A stretch of DNA of 64,000 bases from Burkholderiaceae bacterium. GTDB lineage: Bacteria > Pseudomonadota > Gammaproteobacteria > Burkholderiales > Burkholderiaceae_C. Of this stretch, positions 6,039-61,384 are shown one piece after another. The translations under genes were made by a program, and so were the position numbers. The first letter of the stretch is position 1; every line of letters begins with the position of its first letter. The DNA is taken from contig JAIESX010000020.1 in assembly GCA_019745555.1 (NCBI GenBank), positions 62,001-126,000 of the forward strand, given 5' to 3'. The notes beneath the pieces were generated by a model. It did no database searches. It saw only the letters and a list, made by a program, of their open reading frames with translations, and had not been told where the DNA came from.

Positions 6039-8219
<2,181 letters not shown>

Positions 8220-10905: not shown

Positions 10906-11472
10906 ATGCGACTGTTCCTCACCCTGCTTTCCCTGCTGCTGGCCTGGCCGGTGGCCGCGCAATTGCCCGAGCGTGATCTGGTGCTCGAGCTGCGCGAGAT
11001 CGACGAAGGCGGCGCGGGCTATGTGGTGGGCACGCGGCCGCAGGTGCCGCTGATGGCGCCACAGCAGCTGCAGGTGCGCAATGGCGGCGCGGCCCGCCTG
11101 AGTTTTTCGCAGGTCACCCCGATCCAGTGGGTGCAGTCCGTGCAGGCCCAGGGTGCGCTCACGGGCGCGGGCGTGAAGCAGGGCCTGATCTGGCTGCAGG
11201 CCGGCCAGAGCCTGCAGTTCAAGCCGCGCTGGCCTGGGGGCCAGAAGCCGGCCACGGTGGAGATCGAGGTGCAGACGCAGAACGTGCGGCAGCAGCCCGG
11301 CAAGGACCTGCCCACCCAGGAGCGCGGTGAACTCAGCACCACGGTGAGCGCACCGCTGGGCCAGTGGGTCACGCTGGCGCGCAGCGGCCATGCGCCGCAG
11401 CCCGGGGTCTACAGCAGCAACGCGGCCACGCAACGCCCGCGTCTTTTGCAGCTGCGCGTGACGGTGCCTTGA
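10906..11472 (+). CDS. Secreted protein of unknown function
   Basis: 188 residues. A clear Sec signal peptide (MRLFLTLLSLLLAWPVAAQ) precedes a mature domain of about 170 residues with mostly beta character and a final VTVP. A ribosome binding site (GGAGG) lies 9 bases before ATG 10906. I do not recognise the family; the LELREIDEGGAGYVVGT opening and SFSQVTPIQWVQS segments resemble the short secreted proteins often annotated as hypothetical in Burkholderiales. It is divergent from the OYE gene and lies 95 bases before oxyR on the same strand. Confidence 0.7.
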   Translation: MRLFLTLLSLLLAWPVAAQLPERDLVLELREIDEGGAGYVVGTRPQVPLMAPQQLQVRNGGAARLSFSQVTPIQWVQSVQAQGALTGAGVKQGLIWLQAGQSLQFKPRWPGGQKPATVEIEVQTQNVRQQPGKDLPTQERGELSTTVSAPLGQWVTLARSGHAPQPGVYSSNAATQRPRLLQLRVTVP

Positions 11473-49667: not shown

Positions 49668-50645
49668 TCAGCCCCTCTTGCGGCGCTCCAGCCAGGCGAT
49701 CAGCTCGCCCATCACGCCGCGGCGGAAGGCCAGCACGCAGACCACGAAGATGAAGCCGGTGACGATGGTGACCGACTCACCCAGCGAGGCAAACCACTCC
49801 ACGCCAGTGAACTTGGCAAACCAGCCGCCGATCTCGCCGATCTTGTTCTCCAGCAGGATCACCAGCGCCGAGCCCAGGATGGGGCCGGAAAGCGTGCCCA
49901 TGCCGCCCACCAGCGTCATCAGCACCACCTGGCCCGAGGCCGTCCAGTGCACGTCGCTCAGCGTGGCAAAGCCCAGCACCAGGGTCTTGAGCGAACCGGC
50001 CAGGCCGGCCAGCGCGGCCGAGAGCACGAAGGCCAGCAGCTTGAAGCGCTGCGTGTCGTAGCCCAGGGAGATCGAGCGCGGCTCGTTCTCCTTGATGGCC
50101 TTGAGCACCTGGCCGAAGGGCGAATGGATGATGCGCACGATCAGCAGGAAGGCCGCGATGACGATGGCCAGCGCCACGTAGTACATCACCACGTCGTCGC
50201 TCAGGTCGAGCAGGCCGAAGAGCTTGCCGCGCGGCACGCCCTGCAGGCCGTCTTCGCCACCCGTCTGCGGCGCCTGCAGGCAGATGAAGAAGACCATCTG
50301 CGCCAGCGCCAGCGTGATCATGGCGAAGTAGATGCCCTGGCGGCGGATGGCCAGCGCGCCGAAGACCCAGCCCATGGCCGCTGCGCCCAGCGTGCCCGCA
50401 AGCAGGCCCATCTCGGGGGTCAAGCCCCATACCTTGATGGCGTGGCCGGCCACATAGGCCGCGCCGCCGAGAAAGGCTGCGTGACCGAAGGACAGCAGGC
50501 CGGTGTAGCCCAGCAGCAGGTTGAAGGCCGAAGCAAACAGTGCAAAGCACATCAGCTTCATGACAAACACGGGGTAGGCGCCGGCAAAAGGCGCCACCAG
50601 CAGACCCAGCAACAGAAGGCCGTACCCGATTTTCTTGATGTTCAT
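49668..50645 (-). CDS. livM: Branched-chain amino acid ABC transporter permease LivM
   Basis: 325 residues, with about ten hydrophobic helices. Family marks include LLGYTGLLSFGHAAFLGGAAYV and GGMGTLSGPILGSALVILLENK. It is the last gene of the liv operon, ending with a terminator. Substrate specificity (branched-chain or other amino acids, or urea) is not decided by the permease sequence. Confidence 0.92.
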   Translation of the reverse strand: MNIKKIGYGLLLLGLLVAPFAGAYPVFVMKLMCFALFASAFNLLLGYTGLLSFGHAAFLGGAAYVAGHAIKVWGLTPEMGLLAGTLGAAAMGWVFGALAIRRQGIYFAMITLALAQMVFFICLQAPQTGGEDGLQGVPRGKLFGLLDLSDDVVMYYVALAIVIAAFLLIVRIIHSPFGQVLKAIKENEPRSISLGYDTQRFKLLAFVLSAALAGLAGSLKTLVLGFATLSDVHWTASGQVVLMTLVGGMGTLSGPILGSALVILLENKIGEIGGWFAKFTGVEWFASLGESVTIVTGFIFVVCVLAFRRGVMGELIAWLERRKRG

Positions 50646-50660
50646 GGTGGGGCGAGCCTC

Positions 50661-51545
50661 TTATTTCTCTTTGCCGAACAGGCCGGCCGGGCGCGTCAGC
50701 AGCACGATGACCATGATCACGAAGACCACGGTCGAGGAGGCTTCGGGGTAAAACACTTTGGTGAAACCTTCGACGATGCCCAGGCCCAGACCGGTGAGGA
50801 TGGAGCCCAGGATGGAACCCATGCCGCCGATCACGACCACGGCAAACACCACGATGATGAGGTTCTGCCCCATCAGCGGCGAGACCTGGATCACCGGCGC
50901 TGCCAGCACGCCGGCAAAGGCCGCGAGCGCCACGCCGAAGCCATAGGTCAGCGTGACCATCAGCGGCACGTTGATGCCGAAGGCCTCCACCAGACGCGGG
51001 TTCTCGGTGCCGGCGCGCAGATAGGCGCCCAGGCGGGTCTTCTCGATCACGTACCAGGTCGCCAGGCAGACGGTGATGGACGCCACCACCACCCAGACGC
51101 GGTAGTTGGGCAGCATCATGAAGCCCAGGTTGGTCGCGCCTTCGAGCAGCTCGGGCGTGTCGTAGTTCAGACCCGAGGCGCCGTAGATCGAGCGCAGCAG
51201 GCCCTCGATCAGCAGCGTCAGGCCCAGCGTGAGCAGCAGGCCGTAGAGGTGGTCCAGCTTGTAGATCCAGCGCAGCATGGTGCGCTCGATCACGATGCCG
51301 ATCAGACCCACCGCCAGCGGTGCCAGCAGCAGCATCCACCAGTAGCCGATGCCCAGGTAGTTCATGGCCATCCAGGTGAACAGCGCCCCCAGCATGAACA
51401 GCGCCCCGTGCGCGAAGTTGATCACGTTGAGCAGGCCGAAGATCACGGCCAAGCCCAGGCTCAGGATCGCGTAGAAAGAGCCGTTGACCAGCCCCAGCAG
51501 GAGCTGGCTCAGCAGGGCCGGAAGCGATTTACCAAAGATTTCCAT
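50661..51545 (-). CDS. livH: Branched-chain amino acid ABC transporter permease LivH
   Basis: 294 residues, the LivH length, with the N-terminal LLLGLVNGSFYAILSLGLAVIFG and the EAA-type loop AFAGVLAAPVIQVSPLMGQN and VIGGMGSILGSILTGLGLGI. Forms the channel with LivM. It is 15 bases from livM and 62 bases from the binding protein gene. Confidence 0.93.
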   Translation of the reverse strand: MEIFGKSLPALLSQLLLGLVNGSFYAILSLGLAVIFGLLNVINFAHGALFMLGALFTWMAMNYLGIGYWWMLLLAPLAVGLIGIVIERTMLRWIYKLDHLYGLLLTLGLTLLIEGLLRSIYGASGLNYDTPELLEGATNLGFMMLPNYRVWVVVASITVCLATWYVIEKTRLGAYLRAGTENPRLVEAFGINVPLMVTLTYGFGVALAAFAGVLAAPVIQVSPLMGQNLIIVVFAVVVIGGMGSILGSILTGLGLGIVEGFTKVFYPEASSTVVFVIMVIVLLTRPAGLFGKEK

Positions 51546-51607
51546 GTGTACAGCACGTTGCAGGGCCGGCCCACACCGTCGGCGTGGGCCGGCCCGAGTT
51601 CAGACGA

Positions 51608-52801
51608 TCACTTCCAGAGGGCGCACTTGCTCTCGGCCTTGGTGGTGAACACCTCGTCGCCGGGCAGCTTCTTCACGACCTTGTAGTAGTCCCAGGGCTG
51701 CTTGGACTCGGCGGGCGACTTGACCTGCATCAGGTACATGTCGTGCACGTAGCGGCCGTCCGGACGGATCACGCCCTCGGCGTAGAAGTCCTTGAGCTTG
51801 GTGCTCTTCAGATACGCCATCACCTTGTCGGCGTCTTCCGTCTTGGTGGCCTGCAGGGCCTTGAGGTAGTTCATCGTGGCCGAGTAGTTGGCGGCCTGGA
51901 TGTCGGTCGGCATGCGCTTGGTCTTCTCAAAGAACTTCTTGCCGAAGGCGCGCGACTCGTCGTTCAGGTTCCAGTCCCAGCTCGTCGTGAGCAGCAGGCC
52001 TTCGGTGTTGCGCAGGCCCATGCTGTGCACGTCGGAGTTGAACACCAGCAGACCGGCCATCTTCATGCTCTTGTTGATACCGAACTCACGCGCGGCCTTG
52101 ATGGCGTTGATCGTGTCGCCGCCGGCGTTGGCCAGACCCAGGATCTGGGCCTTGGAGTTCTGGGCCTGCAGCAGGAAGGACGAGAAGTCGGACGCGTTCA
52201 GCGGGTGGCGCACGGCGCCAGCCACGGTGCCGCCCTTGGCCTTGACCACGTTGGACGCATCGGTCTCCAGCAGCTGGCCGAAGGCGTAGTCGGCCGTCAG
52301 GAAGTACCAGCTCTTGCCGCCCTGCTCCACGATGGCGCCAGCCGTACCCTTGGCCAGGGCCACGGTGTCGTAGGCGTAGTGGATGGTGTAGGGCGTGCAC
52401 TGGGCGTTGGTCAGCGCGGAGCCGCCGGCGCCGTTGACGAAGAAGACGCGCTTCTTCTCGTTGGCCACCTGGGCCATGGCCAGGGCGGTGCCGGAGTTGG
52501 TGCCGCCGAAGAGCATGGTCAGACCCTGGGTGTCGATCCACTCGCGCGCCTTGGAGGCGGCGATGTCGGCCTTGTTCTGGTGGTCGGCAGACAGCAGCTC
52601 GATGGTCTTGCCGTTGACCTTGCCACCGAAGTCGTCAATGGCCATCTGGATGGCCAGCGCGCCGTTCTTGCCGTCCACGTCGGAGTAGAGGCTGGACATG
52701 TCGGTGATGAAGCCGATGCGGACCTTGTCCTGGGCTTGCGCGGTGGCGGCCAGGCCGGCGATGCCCAGCGCAAGGGCGATGGCGGTCAGTTGTCTTTTCA
52801 T
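51608..52801 (-). CDS. livK: Branched-chain amino acid ABC transporter substrate-binding protein
   Basis: 397 residues. Signal peptide MKRQLTAIALALGIAGLAATAQAQ, cleaved after AQAQ. The mature part starts DKVRIGFITDMSSLYSDVDGKNG and contains SADHQNKADIAASKAREWID, the family pattern. ATG 52801 follows a GGAGA site; the frame is open 19 codons more but that part lacks a signal. It is unusual that the gene lies in the middle of the operon, between livF and livH. Confidence 0.9.
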   Translation of the reverse strand: MKRQLTAIALALGIAGLAATAQAQDKVRIGFITDMSSLYSDVDGKNGALAIQMAIDDFGGKVNGKTIELLSADHQNKADIAASKAREWIDTQGLTMLFGGTNSGTALAMAQVANEKKRVFFVNGAGGSALTNAQCTPYTIHYAYDTVALAKGTAGAIVEQGGKSWYFLTADYAFGQLLETDASNVVKAKGGTVAGAVRHPLNASDFSSFLLQAQNSKAQILGLANAGGDTINAIKAAREFGINKSMKMAGLLVFNSDVHSMGLRNTEGLLLTTSWDWNLNDESRAFGKKFFEKTKRMPTDIQAANYSATMNYLKALQATKTEDADKVMAYLKSTKLKDFYAEGVIRPDGRYVHDMYLMQVKSPAESKQPWDYYKVVKKLPGDEVFTTKAESKCALWK

Positions 52802-52854
52802 GGTGTCTCCTGGTGAGGTGGTGGGGGAAAAGAACCGGATGAGGGGGCCGGGCG

Positions 52855-53568
52855 TCACACGCCCAGCAATTCGTTGAGGACGGCCGTCTTGGCCTGCAGC
52901 TGCGCGGCAGGGAACTGCTCCACGATGCGGCCGTGCTCCATGACGTAGAAACGGTCGGCCAGCGGCGCGGCGAAGCGGAAGTTCTGCTCCACCATCACGA
53001 TGGTGTAGCCCTTCTCGCGCAGCGTCACGATCATGCGTGCCAGTGCCTGCACGATCACCGGCGCCAGGCCCTCGGAGATTTCATCGAGCAGCAGCAGCTT
53101 GGCGCCCGTGCGCAGGATGCGCGCCACGGCCAGCATCTGCTGCTCGCCGCCGGACAGGCGCGTGCCCTGGCTCTGGCGGCGCTCGGCCAGGTTGGGGAAC
53201 ATGGCATAGATCTCGTCGATGGACATGCCGCCGTCCGTGCCCTTGAGCTGCGGGGGCAGCATCAGGTTTTCTTCGCACGAGAGGCTGGAGAAGATGCCGC
53301 GTTCCTCGGGGCAGTAGCCCACGCCCAGGTGGGCGATGCGGTGGGTCGGGGAGGCGATGGTCTCCACCCCGTTGATCTGGATCGAACCCTGGCGCGTGCC
53401 CGTCAGGCCCATGATGGCGCGCAGCGTGGTGGTGCGGCCGGCGCCGTTGCGGCCCAGCAGCGTCACCACCTCGCCCGGGTGCACCACCATGTCCACGCCG
53501 TGCAGCACATGCGATTCGCCGTACCAGGCCTGCAGGTTCTTGATTTCGAGTGCGGGAGTCGTTGTCAT
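52855..53568 (-). CDS. livF: Branched-chain amino acid ABC transporter ATP-binding protein LivF, atypical Walker A
   Basis: 237 residues. The P-loop reads GRNGAGRTT at residues 39-47: the invariant Walker A Lys is Arg45 (codon CGC), confirmed by the neighbouring bases. Other motifs are intact: LSGGEQQMLAVARIL (signature), LLLLDEISEGLAPVIV (Walker B) and the switch His is Gln in MVEQNF, as is usual for LivF. Lys-to-Arg at this place normally cripples ATP hydrolysis, but I recall similar sequences in some Burkholderiales LivF proteins. It starts 2 bases after the livG stop. Confidence 0.93.
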   Translation of the reverse strand: MTTTPALEIKNLQAWYGESHVLHGVDMVVHPGEVVTLLGRNGAGRTTTLRAIMGLTGTRQGSIQINGVETIASPTHRIAHLGVGYCPEERGIFSSLSCEENLMLPPQLKGTDGGMSIDEIYAMFPNLAERRQSQGTRLSGGEQQMLAVARILRTGAKLLLLDEISEGLAPVIVQALARMIVTLREKGYTIVMVEQNFRFAAPLADRFYVMEHGRIVEQFPAAQLQAKTAVLNELLGV

Positions 53569-53570
53569 GC

Positions 53571-54341
53571 TCAATGCGCGCCTTGCAGTTCGCCAGAAGT
53601 GGTGCCCATATAGGCCTCCATCACCTGCGGGTTGCGCGAGACCTCGGCATAGGGGCCTTCGGCCAGCACCGCGCCGCGCTGCAGCACCGTGATGGTGTCG
53701 GCGATGGTCGAGACCACGCCCATGTTGTGTTCCACCATCAGGATGGTGCGGCCCGCCGAGACCTTCTTGATCAGCTGCGTCACGCGGTCCACGTCCTCGT
53801 GGCCCATGCCCTGGGTGGGTTCGTCGAGCAGCATGAGCTCGGGCTCCATGGCCAGGGTGGTGGCGATCTCCAGGGCGCGCTTGCGGCCATAGGAGAGGTT
53901 GACGGTGAGCTCGTGCGCCCAGCTCTCCAGACCCACCTCGGCCAGCAGGGCCAGGGCGCGCTCGTTGAGCTGGTCCAGCGTGCGTTCGCTCTTCCAGAAG
54001 TGGTAGGCCGTGCCCAGCTGGCGCTGCAGCGCGATGCGCACGTTCTCCAGCAGCGTCAGGTGCGGGAAGACCGCCGAGATCTGGAAGGAACGGATGATGC
54101 CGCGCCGCGCGATCTGCGCCGGGCGTTCGCGCGTGATGTCGATGCCGTTGAAAAGAATCGAGCCCGAGGTGGGCTCCAGAAACTTGGTCAACAGGTTGAA
54201 GCACGTGGTCTTGCCCGCGCCGTTGGGCCCGATCAGCGCGTGGATGGAGCCGCTCACCACGGACAGGTCCACCTGGCTCACGGCCGTGAACCCCTTGAAC
54301 TCCTTGGTGAGCTTGTGGGTTTGCAGAATGATGTTGCTCAT
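53571..54341 (-). CDS. livG: Branched-chain amino acid ABC transporter ATP-binding protein LivG
   Basis: 256 residues with normal ATPase motifs: GPNGAGKTTCFNLLTKF (Walker A), LSYGRKRALEIATTLA (signature), ELMLLDEPTQGM (Walker B) and MVEHNM (switch). It is the first gene of the operon. ATG 54341 fits the family start; the frame is open 5 codons more. No strong ribosome binding site is visible for either start. Confidence 0.93.
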   Translation of the reverse strand: MSNIILQTHKLTKEFKGFTAVSQVDLSVVSGSIHALIGPNGAGKTTCFNLLTKFLEPTSGSILFNGIDITRERPAQIARRGIIRSFQISAVFPHLTLLENVRIALQRQLGTAYHFWKSERTLDQLNERALALLAEVGLESWAHELTVNLSYGRKRALEIATTLAMEPELMLLDEPTQGMGHEDVDRVTQLIKKVSAGRTILMVEHNMGVVSTIADTITVLQRGAVLAEGPYAEVSRNPQVMEAYMGTTSGELQGAH

Positions 54342-54378
54342 TAGGAGGCCGAGCATAGGCCGGTCCCCAGGCCGCCCC

Positions 54379-54395
54379 TAGGGTGTTAGTCCCTA
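54379..54395. promoter_or_regulatory. Inverted repeat TAGGG-N7-CCCTA upstream of livG
   Basis: A perfect 5-bp inverted repeat centred about 46 bases before the livG start. AT-rich sequence follows on its distal side (CATAAATACC), where a promoter would lie for minus-strand transcription. A partly similar string, TTTAGGGATAGTCC, is found upstream of the uORF at 46267. The regulator is unknown. Confidence 0.35.
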
Positions 54396-54473
54396 TGCAT
54401 AAATACCTACCGGTAAACCCGCCGGCCCCAGGGGATTTGCCGCCCGGGCGAAGGGCCGGCCCACGCCGCGCGC

Positions 54474-55469
54474 TCAGTCCACCATGTCGGCCACGGTGAC
54501 CCGGTCGCTGAAATGCTCGCCACGCAGCGCCTGCAGCAGGTTGTCTGCTGCGCGGTGCTCGATGGCCAGGCGCACCTGCCGCACGGCGGAGCCGATGTGC
54601 GGCGTGAGCACCGTGCGGCTGCTCCCGATCAGCGCGGGGTGCACCTCGGCCGGCCGGTCCGGCAGCAGCCAGTCTTCCATTTCATAGACGTCCGCCGCAT
54701 AGGCGCCCAGCCGGCCGCCCTCCAGCGCCCGGGCCACCGCCGCCTCGTCCACCACCGAGCCGCGCCCGATGTTGACCAGGATCTGTCCCGGTTTCACCAG
54801 CGACAGTGCCCGATCACTGATGAGGTGGCGCGTCTGCGCCAGCAACGGCAGGGCCATGATCAGGTAGTCCGCCCGGCGCAGGGCCGTGTCCAGGTCCACC
54901 GCCTGCACCCGCGGGTCTCGCGCCTGCGGGTCCACGCCCAGCAGCTCGGCGCAGCCGAAGCCGCTGAGCCGTTCCACGATGGCCCGCCCCACCGGACCCA
55001 GGCCCACCACCGCTACGACGGAGCGGTGCAGCCCCGTGCCATAGAAGGTCGGCCGCCAGCCCGCGTAGCCGCGGCGCACCGCCTGGTCACCGGCCAGCAC
55101 ATGACGCGCTGCAGCAATCGCCAGCCCGATGGCGAGCTCGGCCGTGGGCTCGGTCAGCAGATCGCGCACAAAGCTCACGCTCACACCGGCTTCGGCACAG
55201 GCGCGCAGGTCGAAATTGTCGTGGCCCTTGAGCGCGCAGGCCACGGTGCGCAGCATGGGCGCGTGCTCCAGCGTGCGGCGATCCACCCGGTCCGGCATGA
55301 AGGCCAGCAGGCCCTCGGCCTCCTGCAGGTGCGCCATCAGCTCTGCGTCGCTCCAGGGCTCGGGCCCCGGGTTCATCACCACGTGGCCGTGGGCCTGCAG
55401 CTTGGCCAGCACCTCCGCATGTACGGGTTGGGTCACGACGATCTTGGGCAGGGAAGAGGTATTTGTCAT
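54474..55469 (-). CDS. ptxD: NAD-dependent phosphite dehydrogenase
   Basis: 331 residues of the D-2-hydroxyacid dehydrogenase family with close similarity over its length to Pseudomonas stutzeri PtxD: LLAFMPDRVD, CALKGHDNFD, DLLTEPTAELAIGL, GWRPTFYGTGL, RGSVVDEAAVARALEGG, YAADVYEMEDW and TPHIGSAVRQVRLAIE. Active-site residues of PtxD correspond: Met58, Lys81, Trp138, Tyr143, Arg236, Glu263, His291 and Arg300. The NAD motif is GLGPVG and Asp180 ends the second strand, favouring NAD. The enzyme oxidises phosphite to phosphate. It overlaps ptxC by 4 bases and ends the operon. Confidence 0.93.
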   Translation of the reverse strand: MTNTSSLPKIVVTQPVHAEVLAKLQAHGHVVMNPGPEPWSDAELMAHLQEAEGLLAFMPDRVDRRTLEHAPMLRTVACALKGHDNFDLRACAEAGVSVSFVRDLLTEPTAELAIGLAIAAARHVLAGDQAVRRGYAGWRPTFYGTGLHRSVVAVVGLGPVGRAIVERLSGFGCAELLGVDPQARDPRVQAVDLDTALRRADYLIMALPLLAQTRHLISDRALSLVKPGQILVNIGRGSVVDEAAVARALEGGRLGAYAADVYEMEDWLLPDRPAEVHPALIGSSRTVLTPHIGSAVRQVRLAIEHRAADNLLQALRGEHFSDRVTVADMVD

Positions 55470-56266
55470 TTCAGTCGTTTTCTCAGGGCCGCGCCGATGG
55501 TGTCGACCACCAGCACGCAGGCCAGCACCGATAGAAGAATTGCCGAGACTTCGTCGTAGCGCACCAGTCGCAGCGCGGCCATCAGCTCGAAACCGATGCC
55601 GCCGGCACCGACGATGCCCAGCACCGCCGAGGCGCGGAAGTGGTATTCCCAGCGGTAGATGGTGATGTCGGCCAGCTGGGGCAGCACCTGCGGCAGCACG
55701 GCATGCGTGATCACCTGAAAGCGGCTCGCACCTGCGGCCAGGGCCGCCTCCAGCGGCTTGGGGTCCACATGCTCGATAGCCTCGGCGTAGAACTTGCCGA
55801 CCATCCCGCTGGAATGCAGCGCCAGGGCCAGCACGCCGGGCAGCGCGCCGAAGCCCACCGCCGCCACGAAGATGATGCCCAGGATGATCTCCGGTACCGA
55901 GCGGAAGGCCGCAAGCACAGCGCGCATCACGCGGCCCAGCAGCGGGTGGGGCGTGGTGTTGGGGGCGGCCAGCAGGGCCAGCGGCAGAGAAAGCACCACC
56001 GTGAGCGCCGTGCCCGCGACCGACATGGCCAGCGTGTCCCGCAAAGGGATGAGCCAGTGCTGCCAGCGGTTGAAGTTGGGCGGCACCATCTCCGAGCCCA
56101 GCTGGCCGATGGCGGGCGCGCCCTCCACAAAGCGCTGCAGATCGAAGAAGCCGGTGATGTGCAGCGCCAGCGCACAGACGGCCAGCACCGCTGCGGCAAA
56201 GGCCAGCCCCCGCAAGAGGCGCCGCCGGTCCGCGACGACGATGGATTCAAGTGCCAGGCCGCTCAC
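55466..56266 (-). CDS. ptxC: Phosphite ABC transporter permease
   Basis: 266 residues of the PhnE permease family with about six hydrophobic helices and the EAA-like loop AALAAGASRFQVITHAVLPQVLPQLAD. Its start overlaps the ptxB stop and its stop overlaps the ptxD start by 4 bases each, so the three are translationally coupled. On its own it would be called a phosphonate permease; the phosphite assignment comes from ptxD. Confidence 0.88.
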   Translation of the reverse strand: MSGLALESIVVADRRRLLRGLAFAAAVLAVCALALHITGFFDLQRFVEGAPAIGQLGSEMVPPNFNRWQHWLIPLRDTLAMSVAGTALTVVLSLPLALLAAPNTTPHPLLGRVMRAVLAAFRSVPEIILGIIFVAAVGFGALPGVLALALHSSGMVGKFYAEAIEHVDPKPLEAALAAGASRFQVITHAVLPQVLPQLADITIYRWEYHFRASAVLGIVGAGGIGFELMAALRLVRYDEVSAILLSVLACVLVVDTIGAALRKRLK

Positions 56267-57135
56267 TTCATGCTTCCCAGGTCGAGCTTGAGGATGGTCG
56301 CGGTCTCACGTAGCACGTCGTAAGCCTGGTCGTCCGTCGGCGCGAAAGCCTCGACGCGGAAAGACTTCAGGATCTCCTTGTCCTTGATCTCCAGAAAGGC
56401 TGTGCGGATGGCCTGCTTGAGCGCCGGTGTCAGACTGGTCTGCATCACCATCGGGTAGTTCGGGATCGGGGGCGACAGATCCAGCTGCACGATCTTGCTG
56501 CCATCCACGATGCCCCGTGTGATCAGACTGTCGAGGATGGGTTTGGACAGCGCACCGGCCGGCACCTGGCCGGCCTGCACCGCGCGCGCCACGGCGTCGT
56601 GGGTGCCCAGGTGGACCGGGCGGTAGTCCTTCTCGCCATCAAGCTGGTACTTCTTGAGCAGGTGCGCGCGCGGCGCCAGGTGGCTGGAGGTCGAGGCCTG
56701 GTCGCCGAAGCCGAAGGGCTTGCCGCGTACGTCGGCCAGCGTCTTCACCGGGCCGCCGGCCGTGGCAATCAGCACCGACTGGTAGGTCGGTGAGCCGCGC
56801 TCCACGCCCACCGCAAAGGGCTCGATGGCCGGCGCCTTGGACTTAGCCAGCACATAAGAGAACGGGCCGAAGTAGGCCACCTCGATGCGGCCGAAGCGCA
56901 TGGCCTCGATCATGGACGAGTAATCGGTGGTGACCGTGATCTCGATCTCCTTGCCCAGTGCCTGCGCCAGGTAGCGCTTGAGGGGCTGCGCGTTCTGGAT
57001 GATGCTGGCCGCGTTCTCATCGGGCAGCAGGGCCACGCGCAGCTTGTCGGGGTTCTTGCCCTGGGCGTACGCGGGCAGGGTGCAGGACAGCAGCGCGGCG
57101 GCGGCGAGTTGGGTGGCGAGACGGCGGTTCAGCAT
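56263..57135 (-). CDS. ptxB: Phosphite-binding periplasmic protein
   Basis: 290 residues of the PhnD/PtxB family. Signal peptide MLNRRLATQLAAAALLSCTLPAYAQ. The mature protein has LRVALLPDENAASIIQNAQPLKRYL, VTTDYSSMIEAMRFGRIEVAYFGP and GDQASTSSHLAPRA, the regions that form the phosphonate or phosphite pocket. A GGAG ribosome binding site precedes ATG 57135, inside the end of ptxA. Confidence 0.9.
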   Translation of the reverse strand: MLNRRLATQLAAAALLSCTLPAYAQGKNPDKLRVALLPDENAASIIQNAQPLKRYLAQALGKEIEITVTTDYSSMIEAMRFGRIEVAYFGPFSYVLAKSKAPAIEPFAVGVERGSPTYQSVLIATAGGPVKTLADVRGKPFGFGDQASTSSHLAPRAHLLKKYQLDGEKDYRPVHLGTHDAVARAVQAGQVPAGALSKPILDSLITRGIVDGSKIVQLDLSPPIPNYPMVMQTSLTPALKQAIRTAFLEIKDKEILKSFRVEAFAPTDDQAYDVLRETATILKLDLGSMK

Positions 57136-57971
57136 GGTTGCAGCTCCTTGGGCTGGGTAGGGGTGATGGGGGGATGGGGCAGGCGGGCCTCTGGAATGCC
57201 GTTGACCGGCACTGCAGCGGGGCGATGGGCATACAGCTCGGAGACGGCGCCGGCGTTCAGATCGGCAGGGCTGCCTTCAAACACCACCCGGCCCTGCTGC
57301 AGGCCGACAATGCGGTCGGCATAGCGGCGCGCCAGCTCCACCTGGTGCAGGCTGACGATGGCCGTCAGGCCGTCCTTCTTGCAGATGCCGTGCAGCAGGT
57401 TGAGCACGTCCTCGGCCGTGGCCGGGTCCAGGCTGGCCACGGGCTCATCGGCCAGCAGCAGGCGCGGGCGCTGCACCAGGGCGCGGGCAATGCCCACGCG
57501 TTGCTGCTGCCCGCCCGACAGCGTGTCTGCACGTGCCAGCGCCTTGGGCAGCAGGCCCACGCGGTCGATCACGGCCAGCGCGGCAAGCTTCTCCTCACGG
57601 CGCCAGGGCAGCAGCGTGCCCAGCAAGCTGCGGCTGGCGAGCCGACCGATGAGCACGTTGTCCAGCACCGACAGCCGGCCGATCAGATGGTGCTGCTGGA
57701 ACACCATACCGCAGCGGCGGCGGTGCTCGCGCAGATGGCGCCCGAAGAGGCCCGTGGCCGGCAGGTCCGGCACCACTACCTCCCCGCCCGTGGGCCGGAC
57801 CAGGCCGTTGATGCTGCGCAGCAGCGTGGACTTGCCGGCTCCCGAGGCGCCGAGCAGCACAAGAAACTCCCCCGGCCGCACCTGCAGGCTCGTGCTGTGC
57901 AGGGCCACATGGCCGTCAGGGTAGGTGACGGAAACATTGCGCAAGGCAAGCAGGGCTTCGGTTGGTGGCAT
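57129..57971 (-). CDS. ptxA: Phosphite ABC transporter ATP-binding protein
   Basis: 280 residues of the PhnC family. Walker A GASGAGKSTLLRSINGL, signature LSGGQQQRVGIARAL, Walker B LLLADEPVASLDP and switch LHQVEL are intact. The C-terminal 30 residues are Pro-rich and specific to this protein. First gene of ptxABCD; the 3' end overlaps ptxB by 7 bases. The 165-base divergent region with the LysR gene holds the control sites. Confidence 0.88.
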   Translation of the reverse strand: MPPTEALLALRNVSVTYPDGHVALHSTSLQVRPGEFLVLLGASGAGKSTLLRSINGLVRPTGGEVVVPDLPATGLFGRHLREHRRRCGMVFQQHHLIGRLSVLDNVLIGRLASRSLLGTLLPWRREEKLAALAVIDRVGLLPKALARADTLSGGQQQRVGIARALVQRPRLLLADEPVASLDPATAEDVLNLLHGICKKDGLTAIVSLHQVELARRYADRIVGLQQGRVVFEGSPADLNAGAVSELYAHRPAAVPVNGIPEARLPHPPITPTQPKELQPC

Positions 57972-58122
57972 GGCGGTTTCTCGTGGGTGGTGTTCCGAGG
58001 CTCCGCGCCGTCCCCGGTCAGGGCCGGCGCGGAGTGCGCTTGCTTCCCGTGGGAGGCAGCGCCAGTTTGCGCAGGCAAGGTGTCATCCAAATGAAACTTG
58101 CCTGTCTCAGAATGAAGTCATC

Positions 58123-58139
58123 CATAGGTCGCATCTATG
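58123..58139. promoter_or_regulatory. LysR-type inverted repeat CATAG-N7-CTATG at the ptxE start
   Basis: A perfect 5-bp inverted repeat that contains a T-N11-A core and overlaps the start codon of the LysR gene. It fits an autoregulatory operator in the 165-base spacer between ptxA and ptxE. No strong ribosome binding site is visible for the LysR gene. Confidence 0.45.
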
Positions 58140-59039
58140 TCAGGACTCAGTCTTCTTGCCGCGCTCAAGGCCTTCGACGCCACCGCCCGCTGGGGCAGCA
58201 TGACGGCCGCCGCCCGCGCGCTGGAACTGCAGCAGCCCACCGTCTCGGCGCACATCCAGCGGCTGGAGCAGGAATACGGCGTCGAGCTGCTGTACCGGCG
58301 CGGGCGCCGGCTGGAGCTCACGGCCTTCGGTCGCGCGCTGCTCGATCACACCCGCCGCGCCTTCAGCGCCGAGGAAGATGCCCATGCCCTGCTGGCCGCG
58401 GCGCGCAGCCGCTATGCCGGGCGCCTGGTCGTGCATGCCATCGGGCCGTACAACGTCGTGCCCATCCTCAAGGCCTATGCCCAGGCCTATCCCCAGGTCA
58501 GCGTGGCCGTGGGCGTGGGAGATTCACGCACCATCACCGCCAAGATCTGTGATTACCAGGGCGATGTGGGCCTGGTGCTCAACCATGTAGACGCCGAGGG
58601 ACTGCACAGCATGCCCTACCGCGTGCAGAACCTCGTGGTCTTCGCGCCTGTGGCGCACCCGCTGGCCCAGCGCGGTGCCATCTCCATCCATGACCTGCAG
58701 GGTCAGCGCTTCGTCATCCGTGAGGAAGGCTCCACCACCCGCCGCGTCTTCGAACAGGAACTGGCCGGCCGCGGCATCCAGATTTACAACGCACTGGAGA
58801 TGGGCAGCCGCGAAGCCGTGCGCGAGGCCGTGGCCCAGGGCCTGGGGCTGGGCGTGGTGGCAGAGACTGCCTACGTGCCCGACCCGCGGCTGGTCAAGCT
58901 GCGGCTGACCGACAGCGCCATGTGCACCCGCGTGCACATCATCTGCCGCGCAGAGCGCAGGCAGTCGCCCCTGATCGCCGCCTTCTACGAAGAAGCCGCC
59001 CGGCTTGCATCCCAGCTGTCCACGGGCGAGCCGCCATGA
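58137..59039 (+). CDS. ptxE: LysR-family regulator, probable PtxE
   Basis: 300 residues. Winged-helix domain at 4-62 (LAALKAFDATARWGSMTAAARALELQQPTVSAHIQRLEQ in separate blocks) and a substrate-binding sensor domain thereafter. It is divergent from ptxABCD, 165 bases apart, the position of a local regulator; in P. stutzeri ptxE lies next to ptxD instead. It resembles regulators linked to phosphonate or phosphite genes. Expected role is control of ptxABCD in response to the substrate or phosphate state; that is inference. Confidence 0.75.
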   Translation: MSGLSLLAALKAFDATARWGSMTAAARALELQQPTVSAHIQRLEQEYGVELLYRRGRRLELTAFGRALLDHTRRAFSAEEDAHALLAAARSRYAGRLVVHAIGPYNVVPILKAYAQAYPQVSVAVGVGDSRTITAKICDYQGDVGLVLNHVDAEGLHSMPYRVQNLVVFAPVAHPLAQRGAISIHDLQGQRFVIREEGSTTRRVFEQELAGRGIQIYNALEMGSREAVREAVAQGLGLGVVAETAYVPDPRLVKLRLTDSAMCTRVHIICRAERRQSPLIAAFYEEAARLASQLSTGEPP

Positions 59040-59167
59040 ACACCACCACGCGCAGCCCGGCTTGCGGCGCGTGAGACTGCACAGGTCTTGCATTGGCTGG
59101 GGGGGGCTGGCCACGGTATCCGTTAAATTCGGGCCATAGCCCCTCCATGGCGCCACCACATTCCCCC

Positions 59168-60103
59168 ATGTCCGACCCCAGTGATTTCAGCGCCGACAGC
59201 GCGGTCTACAAGACCCTGCTGGAGTCCACCCGCGCCATCCCCTGGAAGATCGACTGGGCCACCATGCGCTTCGCCTACATCGGCCCGCAGATCGAGGCCC
59301 TGCTGGGCTGGTCGCAGGACAGCTGGGTCAGCGTGGAAGACTGGGCCGCGCGCATGCACCCGGAAGACCGCGAGCGCGTGGTGAATTTCTGCGTGGCGCA
59401 ATCGAAATGCGGCGTGGACCACGAGGCCGACTACCGCGCGCTCACCAAGGACAAGGGCTACGTCTGGATCCGCGACGTGGTGCACGTGGTGCGCAATGCC
59501 GCGGGCGAGGTGGAGGCCCTCGTGGGCTTCATGTTCGACATCAGCGAACGCAAGAAGACCGAAGAGAAACTCGTCGCCCTGCAGCACGAGCTGGAGGCCC
59601 TGTCCTTCAAGGACGGCCTGACCGGCATCGCCAACCGCCGCCAGTTCGACGCCAGCCTGGAGCGCGAATGGGCGCAGGCCAGCCGCGACCACACGCCCCT
59701 GTCCCTGCTCATGCTGGATGTGGATCTCTTCAAGCAGTACAACGACCTCTATGGCCACCTGCAGGGCGACAGCTGCCTGATCACCATCGCCCAGGTCCTG
59801 GGCCAGGCGGCGGTGCGGCCGCGTGACGTGGTGGCGCGCTTCGGCGGCGAAGAGTTCGTCATCCTGCTGCCCGAGACCGACGCCCAGGGCGCACGCGAGG
59901 TGGCCGAACGCTGTCAGCGCCTCATCGCCGAACAGGCCCTGGAGCACAAGCTCTCGCCCCACGGCCAGCGCGTGACGCTGAGCGTCGGCATGGGCACCGC
60001 GATGCCGGGCGAGTCGCCGTCCCACGGCGAGCTGCTGCAGGCCGTGGACCGGCAGCTCTACGCCGCCAAGCAGAAGGGGCGCAACCGGATCGAGGGCGGT
60101 TGA
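59168..60103 (+). CDS. PAS-GGDEF diguanylate cyclase
   Basis: About 311 residues from ATG 59168 (other in-frame ATG codons at 59147 and 59093). A PAS/PAC domain (about 15-135, YVWIRDVVHVVRNAAGEVEALVGFMFDISERK), a linking helix, then a GGDEF domain (about 150-310) with FGGEEF and the RPRD inhibitory site five residues before it. The active-site loop is intact, so cyclic-di-GMP synthesis with product inhibition is expected. No signal peptide or membrane helix: cytoplasmic. It stands apart from the ptx genes. Confidence 0.9.
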   Translation: MSDPSDFSADSAVYKTLLESTRAIPWKIDWATMRFAYIGPQIEALLGWSQDSWVSVEDWAARMHPEDRERVVNFCVAQSKCGVDHEADYRALTKDKGYVWIRDVVHVVRNAAGEVEALVGFMFDISERKKTEEKLVALQHELEALSFKDGLTGIANRRQFDASLEREWAQASRDHTPLSLLMLDVDLFKQYNDLYGHLQGDSCLITIAQVLGQAAVRPRDVVARFGGEEFVILLPETDAQGAREVAERCQRLIAEQALEHKLSPHGQRVTLSVGMGTAMPGESPSHGELLQAVDRQLYAAKQKGRNRIEGG

Positions 60104-60144
60104 GCACCGGGCAGCTCCACACAGCCCTGTGCAAAATGGGCCCC

Positions 60145-60435
60145 ATGACCCACACCGTCCAGCACCAGGAAGCCGGCTCGAAAGGCGCCTTCTTCATCGC
60201 CCGCCCCGAGGGCGGCCACCTCGCCGAGATGACCTACAGCCGGGCCAACCCCACGCTGATCATCATCGACCACACCGACGTCGACCCCTCCCTCACCGGC
60301 CAGGGCATAGGCCGCAAGCTGCTGGATGCGCTGGTGGCCTGGGCGCGCGAGACGAAGACCAAGGTCATGCCGCTGTGTCCCTATGCCAAGGCGCAGTTTG
60401 GCAAGGATGCGTCGATACGGGATGTGTTGATGTGA
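60145..60435 (+). CDS. Small GNAT-like N-acetyltransferase (YjdJ family)
   Basis: 96 residues from ATG 60145, possible start also at 60136. It resembles the short GCN5-like proteins such as E. coli YjdJ, with FFIARPEGGHLAEMTYS, LIIIDHTDVDPSLTGQGIGRKLLDALV containing the acetyl-CoA loop Q-G-I-G-R, and PLCPYAKAQF at the end. The acetyl acceptor is unknown. It lies 41 bases after the GGDEF gene on the same strand. Confidence 0.8.
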   Translation: MTHTVQHQEAGSKGAFFIARPEGGHLAEMTYSRANPTLIIIDHTDVDPSLTGQGIGRKLLDALVAWARETKTKVMPLCPYAKAQFGKDASIRDVLM

Positions 60436-60828
60436 TCCCGCTTGCTGCGATGACGAGCGGCTGAATGGCTGGTTGAGTGAAGCCGCCATTTGCACTTGCT
60501 AGGCGTAGGACTGCATAAGGCTGATTGCCGCCGTTCGATTTTCTGGGCACTAATGGCCGTTCGTTCCGAAAGCGCTCATCCAAGAGGAGGCCAGAAATGT
60601 TGTCCTATGCCCCTTTCGGGGGATATTTCTCTCGGGCCAGGCTCCCTAGAATCTGACCAGAATCCTGCGTGGTTTATCGGTTTCATTTATACCTGTACAA
60701 ACGGCCACGAGACTTGAGATTTCTTCAATGCTGACAGGTATTTAGGGTGGATCCAATGGACGGTTTATCACGCAGGCGCCGTTTTATTTCGCAGGTTTTG
60801 CGATGTACATCACGTTAGACCTCACGGA
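60436..60828. other. AT-richer intergenic region upstream of an integron cassette
   Basis: A stretch of about 390 bases of visibly lower GC than the flanks. No convincing gene: a 75-codon ORF at 60490-60717 has no ribosome binding site and no family features. It ends in a 10-bp palindrome (GATGTACATC) and the core site GTTAGAC at 60814-60820, the 5' boundary of the cassette. Confidence 0.6.
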
Positions 60829-61180
60829 ATGCACGCTCTTCGGAACTGGTCGAGAACCAAGCTAGCCATGCTCCTAGTGGCAACGCTTCTGCTTTGTCTC
60901 TTCTTTCTGTCGTGGTTCATGCAAACGGTGTGGCTCTCGTCGCTCGCAAGAGACAACAGCCTCGGAACCGCAGTGTGGGCGTACTCCCAGCTTGGCTGCG
61001 CATTCCTCCTCGCGGCGTTTGGGGTTTACGTCGGGGTTCGGCTGTGGAAGGCCGGCGGGAGCGCGTCGTGAGGTCTAACAGGTCGTTCGACTCGGACACG
61101 CACCGGCAGGGCGCCGCGAGGCGTGCTGGTGAGCTTACGCCTCGCGGCGCCCTGCCGGTGCGTGCCGGTCAACTCCAACG
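60815..61180 (+). mobile_element. Integron gene cassette with attC site
   Basis: A 366-base unit bounded by TTAGAC at the left (completing the core GTTAGAC at 60814-60820) and G at the right end (61180, in AACGTT). The R'' box GTCTAAC (61073-61079) is the exact reverse complement of the left core, the diagnostic feature of a cassette excised as a circle. It contains one ORF starting 9 bases after the core and ending 1 base before the attC. Lower GC than the chromosome. No integrase is in the window. Confidence 0.88.
60829..61071 (+). CDS. Integron cassette ORF: small membrane protein
   Basis: 80 residues, starting 9 bases after the cassette core and ending 1 base before the R'' box. Two hydrophobic segments, about 12-35 (LAMLLVATLLLCLFFLSWFM) and 48-72, with a basic N-terminus (RNWSRTK) point to a two-pass inner-membrane protein with both ends in the cytoplasm. 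No family recognised. No strong ribosome binding site; cassette genes often depend on an upstream integron promoter. Confidence 0.65.
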   Translation: MHALRNWSRTKLAMLLVATLLLCLFFLSWFMQTVWLSSLARDNSLGTAVWAYSQLGCAFLLAAFGVYVGVRLWKAGGSAS

Positions 61181-61186
61181 TTCAGG
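61073..61186 (+). mobile_element. attC recombination site
   Basis: R'' GTCTAAC (61073-61079), L'' GTTCGAC (61085-61091), L' GTCAAC (61168-61173) and R' starting with GTT at 61180. L'' pairs with L' leaving one extrahelical C at 61088; further single bulges at T61092 and A61096 flank a CGG/CCG stretch. A perfect 27-bp stem (61098-61124 with 61137-61163) and a 12-base loop follow. This matches the folded bottom-strand architecture of attC sites in every part. R' at the insertion reads GTTCAGG, one base off the GTTRRRY consensus. Confidence 0.9.
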
Positions 61187-61384
61187 GCCTGTTCCCCGTC
61201 GGACCAGGTGACCGCTATGTGACCGAATCAGGACGGTCAGGATTCCGTAGCAACCGACCGTAATCGCTGCATACCAGCTGTCGTTTAGACAAGTCTGAAC
61301 TTCCGCTTTGGGGGAGAAAGCTGAAACCGACTGAGCAACAAAAAGCCGCCCTAAGGCGGCTTTTTGTTGCAGCGCGGAAGTTGC
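61187..61384. other. Spacer between attC and htpG
   Basis: No gene seen. It contains the short imperfect inverted repeat GTTTAGAC-AA-GTCTGAAC at 61283-61300, which resembles a degenerate cassette core pair, and the terminator of htpG. Confidence 0.5.
61336..61369 (-). terminator. Bidirectional intrinsic terminator after htpG
   Basis: CAACAAAAAGCCGCC and GGCGGCTTTTTGTTG form a 15-bp perfect stem with loop CTAA. The stem ends in A/T runs on both sides, so it works for htpG (minus) and for transcripts from the cassette side (plus). Confidence 0.88.

Follow-up and report, generated by a model that had tools for sequence, protein, structure and literature searches.

A phosphite uptake and oxidation operon in a Burkholderiaceae bacterium with a divergent, non-PtxE LysR gene and a candidate two-input promoter

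The ptxABCDE operon of Pseudomonas stutzeri WM88 is described in passages of PMC5698055, and passages of PMC4046663 present the ptxEDptdFCGHI cluster of Desulfotignum phosphitoxidans as a dissimilatory system with a major facilitator superfamily (MFS) importer, PtdC. In Pseudomonas putida BIRD-1, use of another reduced phosphorus compound, 2-aminoethylphosphonate, is controlled by AepR plus PhoBR, according to part of PMC9311074. Here we analyse a ptx locus in a 64,000-nucleotide stretch of DNA (the window) from a Burkholderiaceae bacterium, which belongs to a 146-kb contig in a genome of 2.99 Mb that is 88.6% complete.

The window locus shares with WM88, as far as that operon is covered in the passages cited, the gene set and the order A-B-C-D, and its PtxD and PtxB belong to the same families. 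Unlike WM88, the regulator gene is divergent, lies upstream of ptxA and belongs to another LysR clade than the downstream type; the window has no PtxE-type LysR gene downstream of ptxD. The near-identical plasmid type L083 stood in for WM88 PtxE in these comparisons. Genes, divergent LysR and a palindrome in the spacer are shared with ptx loci of Comamonadaceae and other Betaproteobacteria, for example Curvibacter delicatus L009, from which the window differs in its PtxD (78% identical) and in the flanking genes on one side. The D. phosphitoxidans cluster also pairs PtxD with a regulator gene, but the importer of the window is of the ATP-binding cassette (ABC) type. None of ptdCFGHI is among the Pfam-typed neighbours of ptxD in the window; the genome as a whole was not searched for ptd genes. 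The P. putida system is alike in joining a LysR regulator to PhoBR for a reduced phosphorus compound and unlike in its substrate and genes.

The enzyme and transporter are ordinary and what is new lies in regulation only: a LysR protein other than PtxE, with a conserved candidate operator, that probably acts with PhoB. We favour, with some reserve, the reading that this is an assimilatory phosphite operon under two inputs, PhoB for phosphate starvation and a substrate-sensing LysR protein, the second of which we infer.

The phosphite operon

Judged by sequence, the locus is genuinely an operon for phosphite uptake and oxidation, of known kind and as complete as the original prediction had it. 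The four ptxABCD genes lie on the minus strand and overlap by 7, 4 and 4 bases, and the LysR gene is divergent across a 165-base spacer before ptxA, at exactly the coordinates predicted (Table 1).

Table 1 Features of the ptx locus (positions in the window)
Feature	Position	Strand	Basis
ptxD, NAD-dependent phosphite dehydrogenase (predicted), 331 aa	54474..55469	-	PDB scores, tree, PtxD-only residues, Pfam
ptxC, PhnE-type permease, 266 aa	55466..56266	-	NCBIfam
ptxB, phosphite-type periplasmic binding protein (predicted), 290 aa, tyrosine cap Y227	56263..57135	-	NCBIfam, PDB scores, pocket residues
ptxA, PhnC-type ATPase, 280 aa	57129..57971	-	NCBIfam
Spacer lysR-ptxA, 165 bases	57972-58136		
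Candidate ptxA -10 hexamer CAAACT, 10 nt past the Pho-like site	58064..58069	-	inferred
Pho-box-like site GTTTCATTTGGATGACAC, 11.6 bits	58080..58097	-	pstS-derived matrix
Palindrome ATAGGTCGCATCTAT, proposed LysR operator, overlaps lysR start codon	58124..58138	.	spacer comparison
Divergent LysR regulator, 300 aa, phn_lysR-like, not PtxE	58137..59039	+	NCBIfam, identities, tree, Pfam
Segment missing from the corresponding site of same-genus genome G013, which has 53 bp instead	54412..59099	.	DNA comparison

The top Protein Data Bank (PDB) matches of the dehydrogenase are phosphite dehydrogenases (9pr0, 313 bits; 4e5n, 311.5 bits), and the best match outside that group, a glyoxylate reductase, scores 164.6 bits. 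Its Pfam type is D-2-hydroxyacid dehydrogenase, and it reached the cut-off of none of the 21 NCBIfam models listed. The tree suggested with the original prediction was built from 83 rows, after duplicates and rows shorter than 280 amino acids (aa) had been dropped, and includes two outgroup rows with very long branches. A branch supported at 100/99 splits 56 PtxD-like rows from 27 other D-2-hydroxyacid dehydrogenases; the window protein falls within the PtxD clade, nested in a 36-row, mostly betaproteobacterial clade (100/99) as sister to Curvibacter delicatus L009 (100/98).

Residues point the same way. WM88 M53, K76, D79, T104, W134 and Y139 align with window M58, K81, D84, T109, W138 and Y143, and R237, E266, H292, S295 and R301 with R236, E265, H291, S294 and R300. 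M58, K81 and D84 are kept in 54, 53 and 54, respectively, of the 54 other PtxD-like rows, whereas the other dehydrogenases have G, V and N at these positions (21/27, 25/27 and 25/27). These three count as the PtxD-only residues; WM88 R237, E266 and H292 are of the shared kind. The active site had been predicted to comprise Met58, Lys81, Arg236, His291 and Glu263; the first four do align with WM88, but the glutamate was misplaced, since WM88 E266 corresponds to window E265. We take the WM88 residues counted here as catalytic, E266 included, to have that role. By scores, tree and PtxD-only residues alike, the window dehydrogenase is PtxD, as had been proposed.

For the transporter, PtxA exceeds the NCBIfam PhnC cut-off (299.2 vs 266.1 bits) and PtxC the PhnE cut-off (285.8 vs 216.7 bits). 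PtxB exceeds the cut-off for phosphate/phosphite/phosphonate binding proteins (232.2 vs 112.05 bits) and stays below that for PhnD (200.2 vs 261.1 bits); among PDB chains it scores 271.8 bits with P. stutzeri PtxB (5o2j), 81.1 with the best non-PtxB chain (9lf9) and 71.2 with HtxB. The phosphite pocket of Te_PtxB, as set out in part of PMC5700983, consists of holding residues and a tyrosine cap, Y208, with its partner D22. All eight pocket residues compared are kept in the window protein (D39, Y72, Y118, S148, T149, S150, H179 and Y227), which is thus predicted to be a phosphite-type binding protein.

A separate clade of LysR regulators

A LysR gene divergent to ptxA is found in 32 of 72 ptx loci and is therefore not peculiar to the window genome; the proteins are 52-84% identical to the window LysR. 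LysR genes downstream of ptxD, an arrangement seen in many loci from Alphaproteobacteria and in the three plasmid-borne ones read, encode proteins only 24-33% identical to it. The best NCBIfam model for the window LysR by far is phn_lysR (TIGR03339), at 272.7 bits against a cut-off of 341.1. Six divergent LysR proteins of relatives score 268-282 bits with this model, all likewise below the cut-off, and three downstream LysR proteins gave no match to it at 1e-40.

We compared both types in a tree of 39 rows, with a root of our own choosing and long branches flagged; the LysR rows of L077, L079 and L114, rows shorter than 250 aa and two wrong-strand frames were left out. The divergent type forms a group of 23 rows (100/98) and the downstream type one of 11 (100/100), with five phn_lysR-like rows between them, on the divergent side. 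Divergent-type rows all come from within the 36-row PtxD clade and downstream-type rows all from outside it. The original prediction implied that the P. stutzeri regulator had moved to the other end of the operon, yet the two types sit on separate, fully supported branches, and the window LysR is thus a different regulator. A relocated PtxE is ruled out by the tree together with the low identity to the downstream proteins. In sequence terms, the window LysR belongs to a separate LysR clade, near the aminoethylphosphonate regulators, and AepR presumably falls in TIGR03339, to go by the family name.

The solved LysR chains closest to the window protein by sequence include CbbR and YeiE. A 2026 paper (PMC12880088) reportedly ties YeiE to sulfite; sulfite resembles phosphite in shape, which makes oxyanion sensing by the window LysR plausible. 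In the literature consulted we found no description of ptx with a LysR gene of this type in divergent orientation. A figure in PMC4046663 draws five ptx layouts, one of them that of Burkholderia vietnamiensis G4, and the present layout may already be drawn there.

The lysR-ptxA spacer and control of ptxA

Local control through the spacer had been predicted as likely, and the spacer does hold two candidate elements. We compared 33 spacers (those of the 32 loci and the window), of which 19 are distinct. A loose palindrome, AT-N-G-purine-N5-pyrimidine-C-N-AT, occurs in all 33 and thus in 19/19 distinct spacers; the stricter form ATAG-N7-CTAT is exact in 13/19 and has one mismatch in the other six. 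It lies at the lysR start codon, except in L033 and L044, where it is some tens of bases off. Identity to the window averages 96% in the palindrome half-sites, against 46% across the linker and 31% beyond the hexamer considered below. Across 1.46 Mb of locus sequence the exact form has 27 matches, 18 of these at lysR-ptxA spacers (near-identical loci counted). The loose form had no match in the six upstream regions that belong to the 36-row PtxD clade and have no such LysR gene (L038, L040, L041, L061, L065 and L074), nor at L011, whose contig ends there.

The second element was found with a Pho matrix built on 14 pstS promoters, all from the genus of the window; 29 pstS loci had given 19 promoters with a start, and five from other families were left out by choice. 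Of the 127,966 positions scored in the window, only one outranks the Pho-like site in the spacer, and at the same register 9 of the 19 distinct spacers, the window included, score above 11 bits. Ten nucleotides past this register a hexamer NANACT is present in 17/19 distinct spacers, and at that position each of the 14 pstS sites reads TAAAGT or TAAATT. The hexamers of four Alcaligenaceae spacers (L020, L031, L032 and L034) are closer to the -10 consensus (CATACT, TATACT). A conserved TGACA was considered as a sigma-70 -35 element and set aside, because only about 11 nt separate it from the hexamer. The genome encodes PhoB, over its cut-off, and PstS.

These elements suggest the following model. 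PtxABC, on similarity and conserved pocket residues, would import phosphite, and PtxD, on its clade and active-site residues, would oxidise it to phosphate with NAD; the organism can presumably use phosphite. On ptxA transcription, PhoB would act from the Pho-like site that immediately precedes the -10, and the divergent LysR from the palindrome, which lies further upstream. Since the palindrome overlaps the lysR start codon, LysR probably also represses its own gene. Its signal is probably phosphite or a related small oxyanion. The logic would be that of AepR plus PhoBR in P. putida BIRD-1, as given in part of PMC9311074.

Several observations weigh against this model. The regulator misses the TIGR03339 cut-off (272.7 vs 341.1 bits), and no match to the palindrome patterns searched was found at five loci with phn_lysR-type regulators (L135, L136, L140, L035 and L036). 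The loose palindrome has 131 matches in 1.47 Mb, a count that takes in the spacers and duplicate loci, so that the pattern alone is not rare; the argument for an operator comes from its fixed place and the drift of the sequence around it. L048 and L082, both lacking this LysR, have one loose match each upstream of ptxA, and both lie outside the PtxD clade of the window. The top matrix score in the window, 12.16 bits, falls in a coding region. The 14 pstS sites score 15.1-23.9 bits when each is left out of the matrix, against 11.6 for the window site, so the ptx sites are weaker, and the Pho-like register reaches just 8.6-8.7 bits in three of the 19 spacers and less than 4 bits in seven. The -10 hexamers are poor.

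Each input has also to be weighed on its own. PhoB might drive the operon by itself, with a LysR that hardly matters to ptx: some members of the PtxD clade have ptx without such a LysR, and three of these loci (L040, L041 and L065) keep Pho-like sites of at least 14.9 bits. The P. stutzeri ptx operon is reportedly a member of the Pho regulon, going by the title of White and Metcalf 2004. We nonetheless regard this as unlikely, as all 19 distinct spacers preserve the LysR gene, the operator and a constant distance from there to the -10-like hexamer, although the linker has drifted. Somewhat less likely still is control by LysR alone, with the Pho-like match a chance or relic; the four Alcaligenaceae loci named above do keep palindrome and LysR at Pho-like scores of -5.4 to -1.0 bits, but the recurrence of scores above 11 bits at one register in nine distinct spacers and the near-top rank of the window site count against this reading.

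A different substrate for the transporter and the dehydrogenase, for instance a small phosphonate in place of phosphite, is very improbable. Phosphonates, too, are carried by PhnCDE-type transporters, and the LysR is nearest to aminoethylphosphonate regulators, but the PtxD-only residues and PtxD clade, the sub-threshold PhnD score of PtxB and its tyrosine cap, which according to part of PMC5700983 shuts out bulky groups, all argue for phosphite. Within the genome, 88.6% complete, no PhnJ was found; a second route for phosphonates was also sought there and set aside, as no other binding protein exceeded the TIGR01098 cut-off, with two weaker matches.

Returning to joint control by PhoB and LysR, we raise tentatively, as a possibility a little short of even, that an aminophosphonate-side LysR was recruited as a dedicated phosphite sensor in a betaproteobacterial lineage of ptx operons, replacing PtxE and forming with PhoB a two-input switch at a single promoter whose geometry is fixed, and that some descendants lost either one input or the other. 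The regulator swap and the conserved operator make this LysR a concrete, directly testable candidate for a transcription factor that responds to phosphite; if it proves real, it could be used as a phosphite biosensor. Two-input control, if true, would show how bacteria join phosphate starvation with the presence of phosphite.

Genomic distribution and flanks

With presence set at no less than 290 bits (the next match scores 181), PtxD is present in 6 of 149 genomes, counting that of the window: 3/26 in the genus, 1/64 among the other genomes of the family and 2/59 among the other genomes of the order. The same-genus genome G013 lacks the locus: DNA homology to the window ends at 54411 and restarts at 59100, leaving 53 bp in between, and of the neighbouring proteins there the branched-chain-type ATPase is 99% identical and the GGDEF protein 91%. 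G002 carries ptx at the same place (ptx DNA 80% identical, flanks 83-88%), and in G004 and G014 the flanks are present but ptx is not. The shared site in the window genome (G000) and G002 is compatible with descent and a loss from G013, G004 and G014; recombination through the flanks would fit as well.

We also considered a mobile island of foreign composition. The GC content of ptx (0.66-0.70) is within the range of the flanks, and the composition gives no sign of recent transfer; the eight Pfam-typed neighbours are branched-chain-type ABC genes, a GGDEF protein, an acetyltransferase and Hsp90, with no transposase among them. The idea was rejected.

The interval from the ABC transporter genes to htpG (window 54357-61384) varies within the genus, holding ptx, the GGDEF protein, both or neither, from 1.3 kb upward. 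The branched-chain-type ABC transporter set (49668-54356) ends beside ptxD; its ATPase stays beside htpG or GGDEF in relatives without ptx, and the set is therefore probably unrelated to phosphite. Between the ABC gene and ptxD of Curvibacter delicatus L128 there is a 104-bp copy of the htpG 3' end, 84% identical to that of htpG itself, so that ptx there is flanked by two direct copies of the htpG end (6258-6361 and 11018-11121), perhaps a recombination scar; the window has no htpG 3'-end copy like it. The ptx loci L012-L016 and L030 come from Xenophilus, Variovorax, Bordetella, Delftia, Pigmentiphaga and a Myxococcales bin; their identity values are equal or almost so, suggesting recent transfer.

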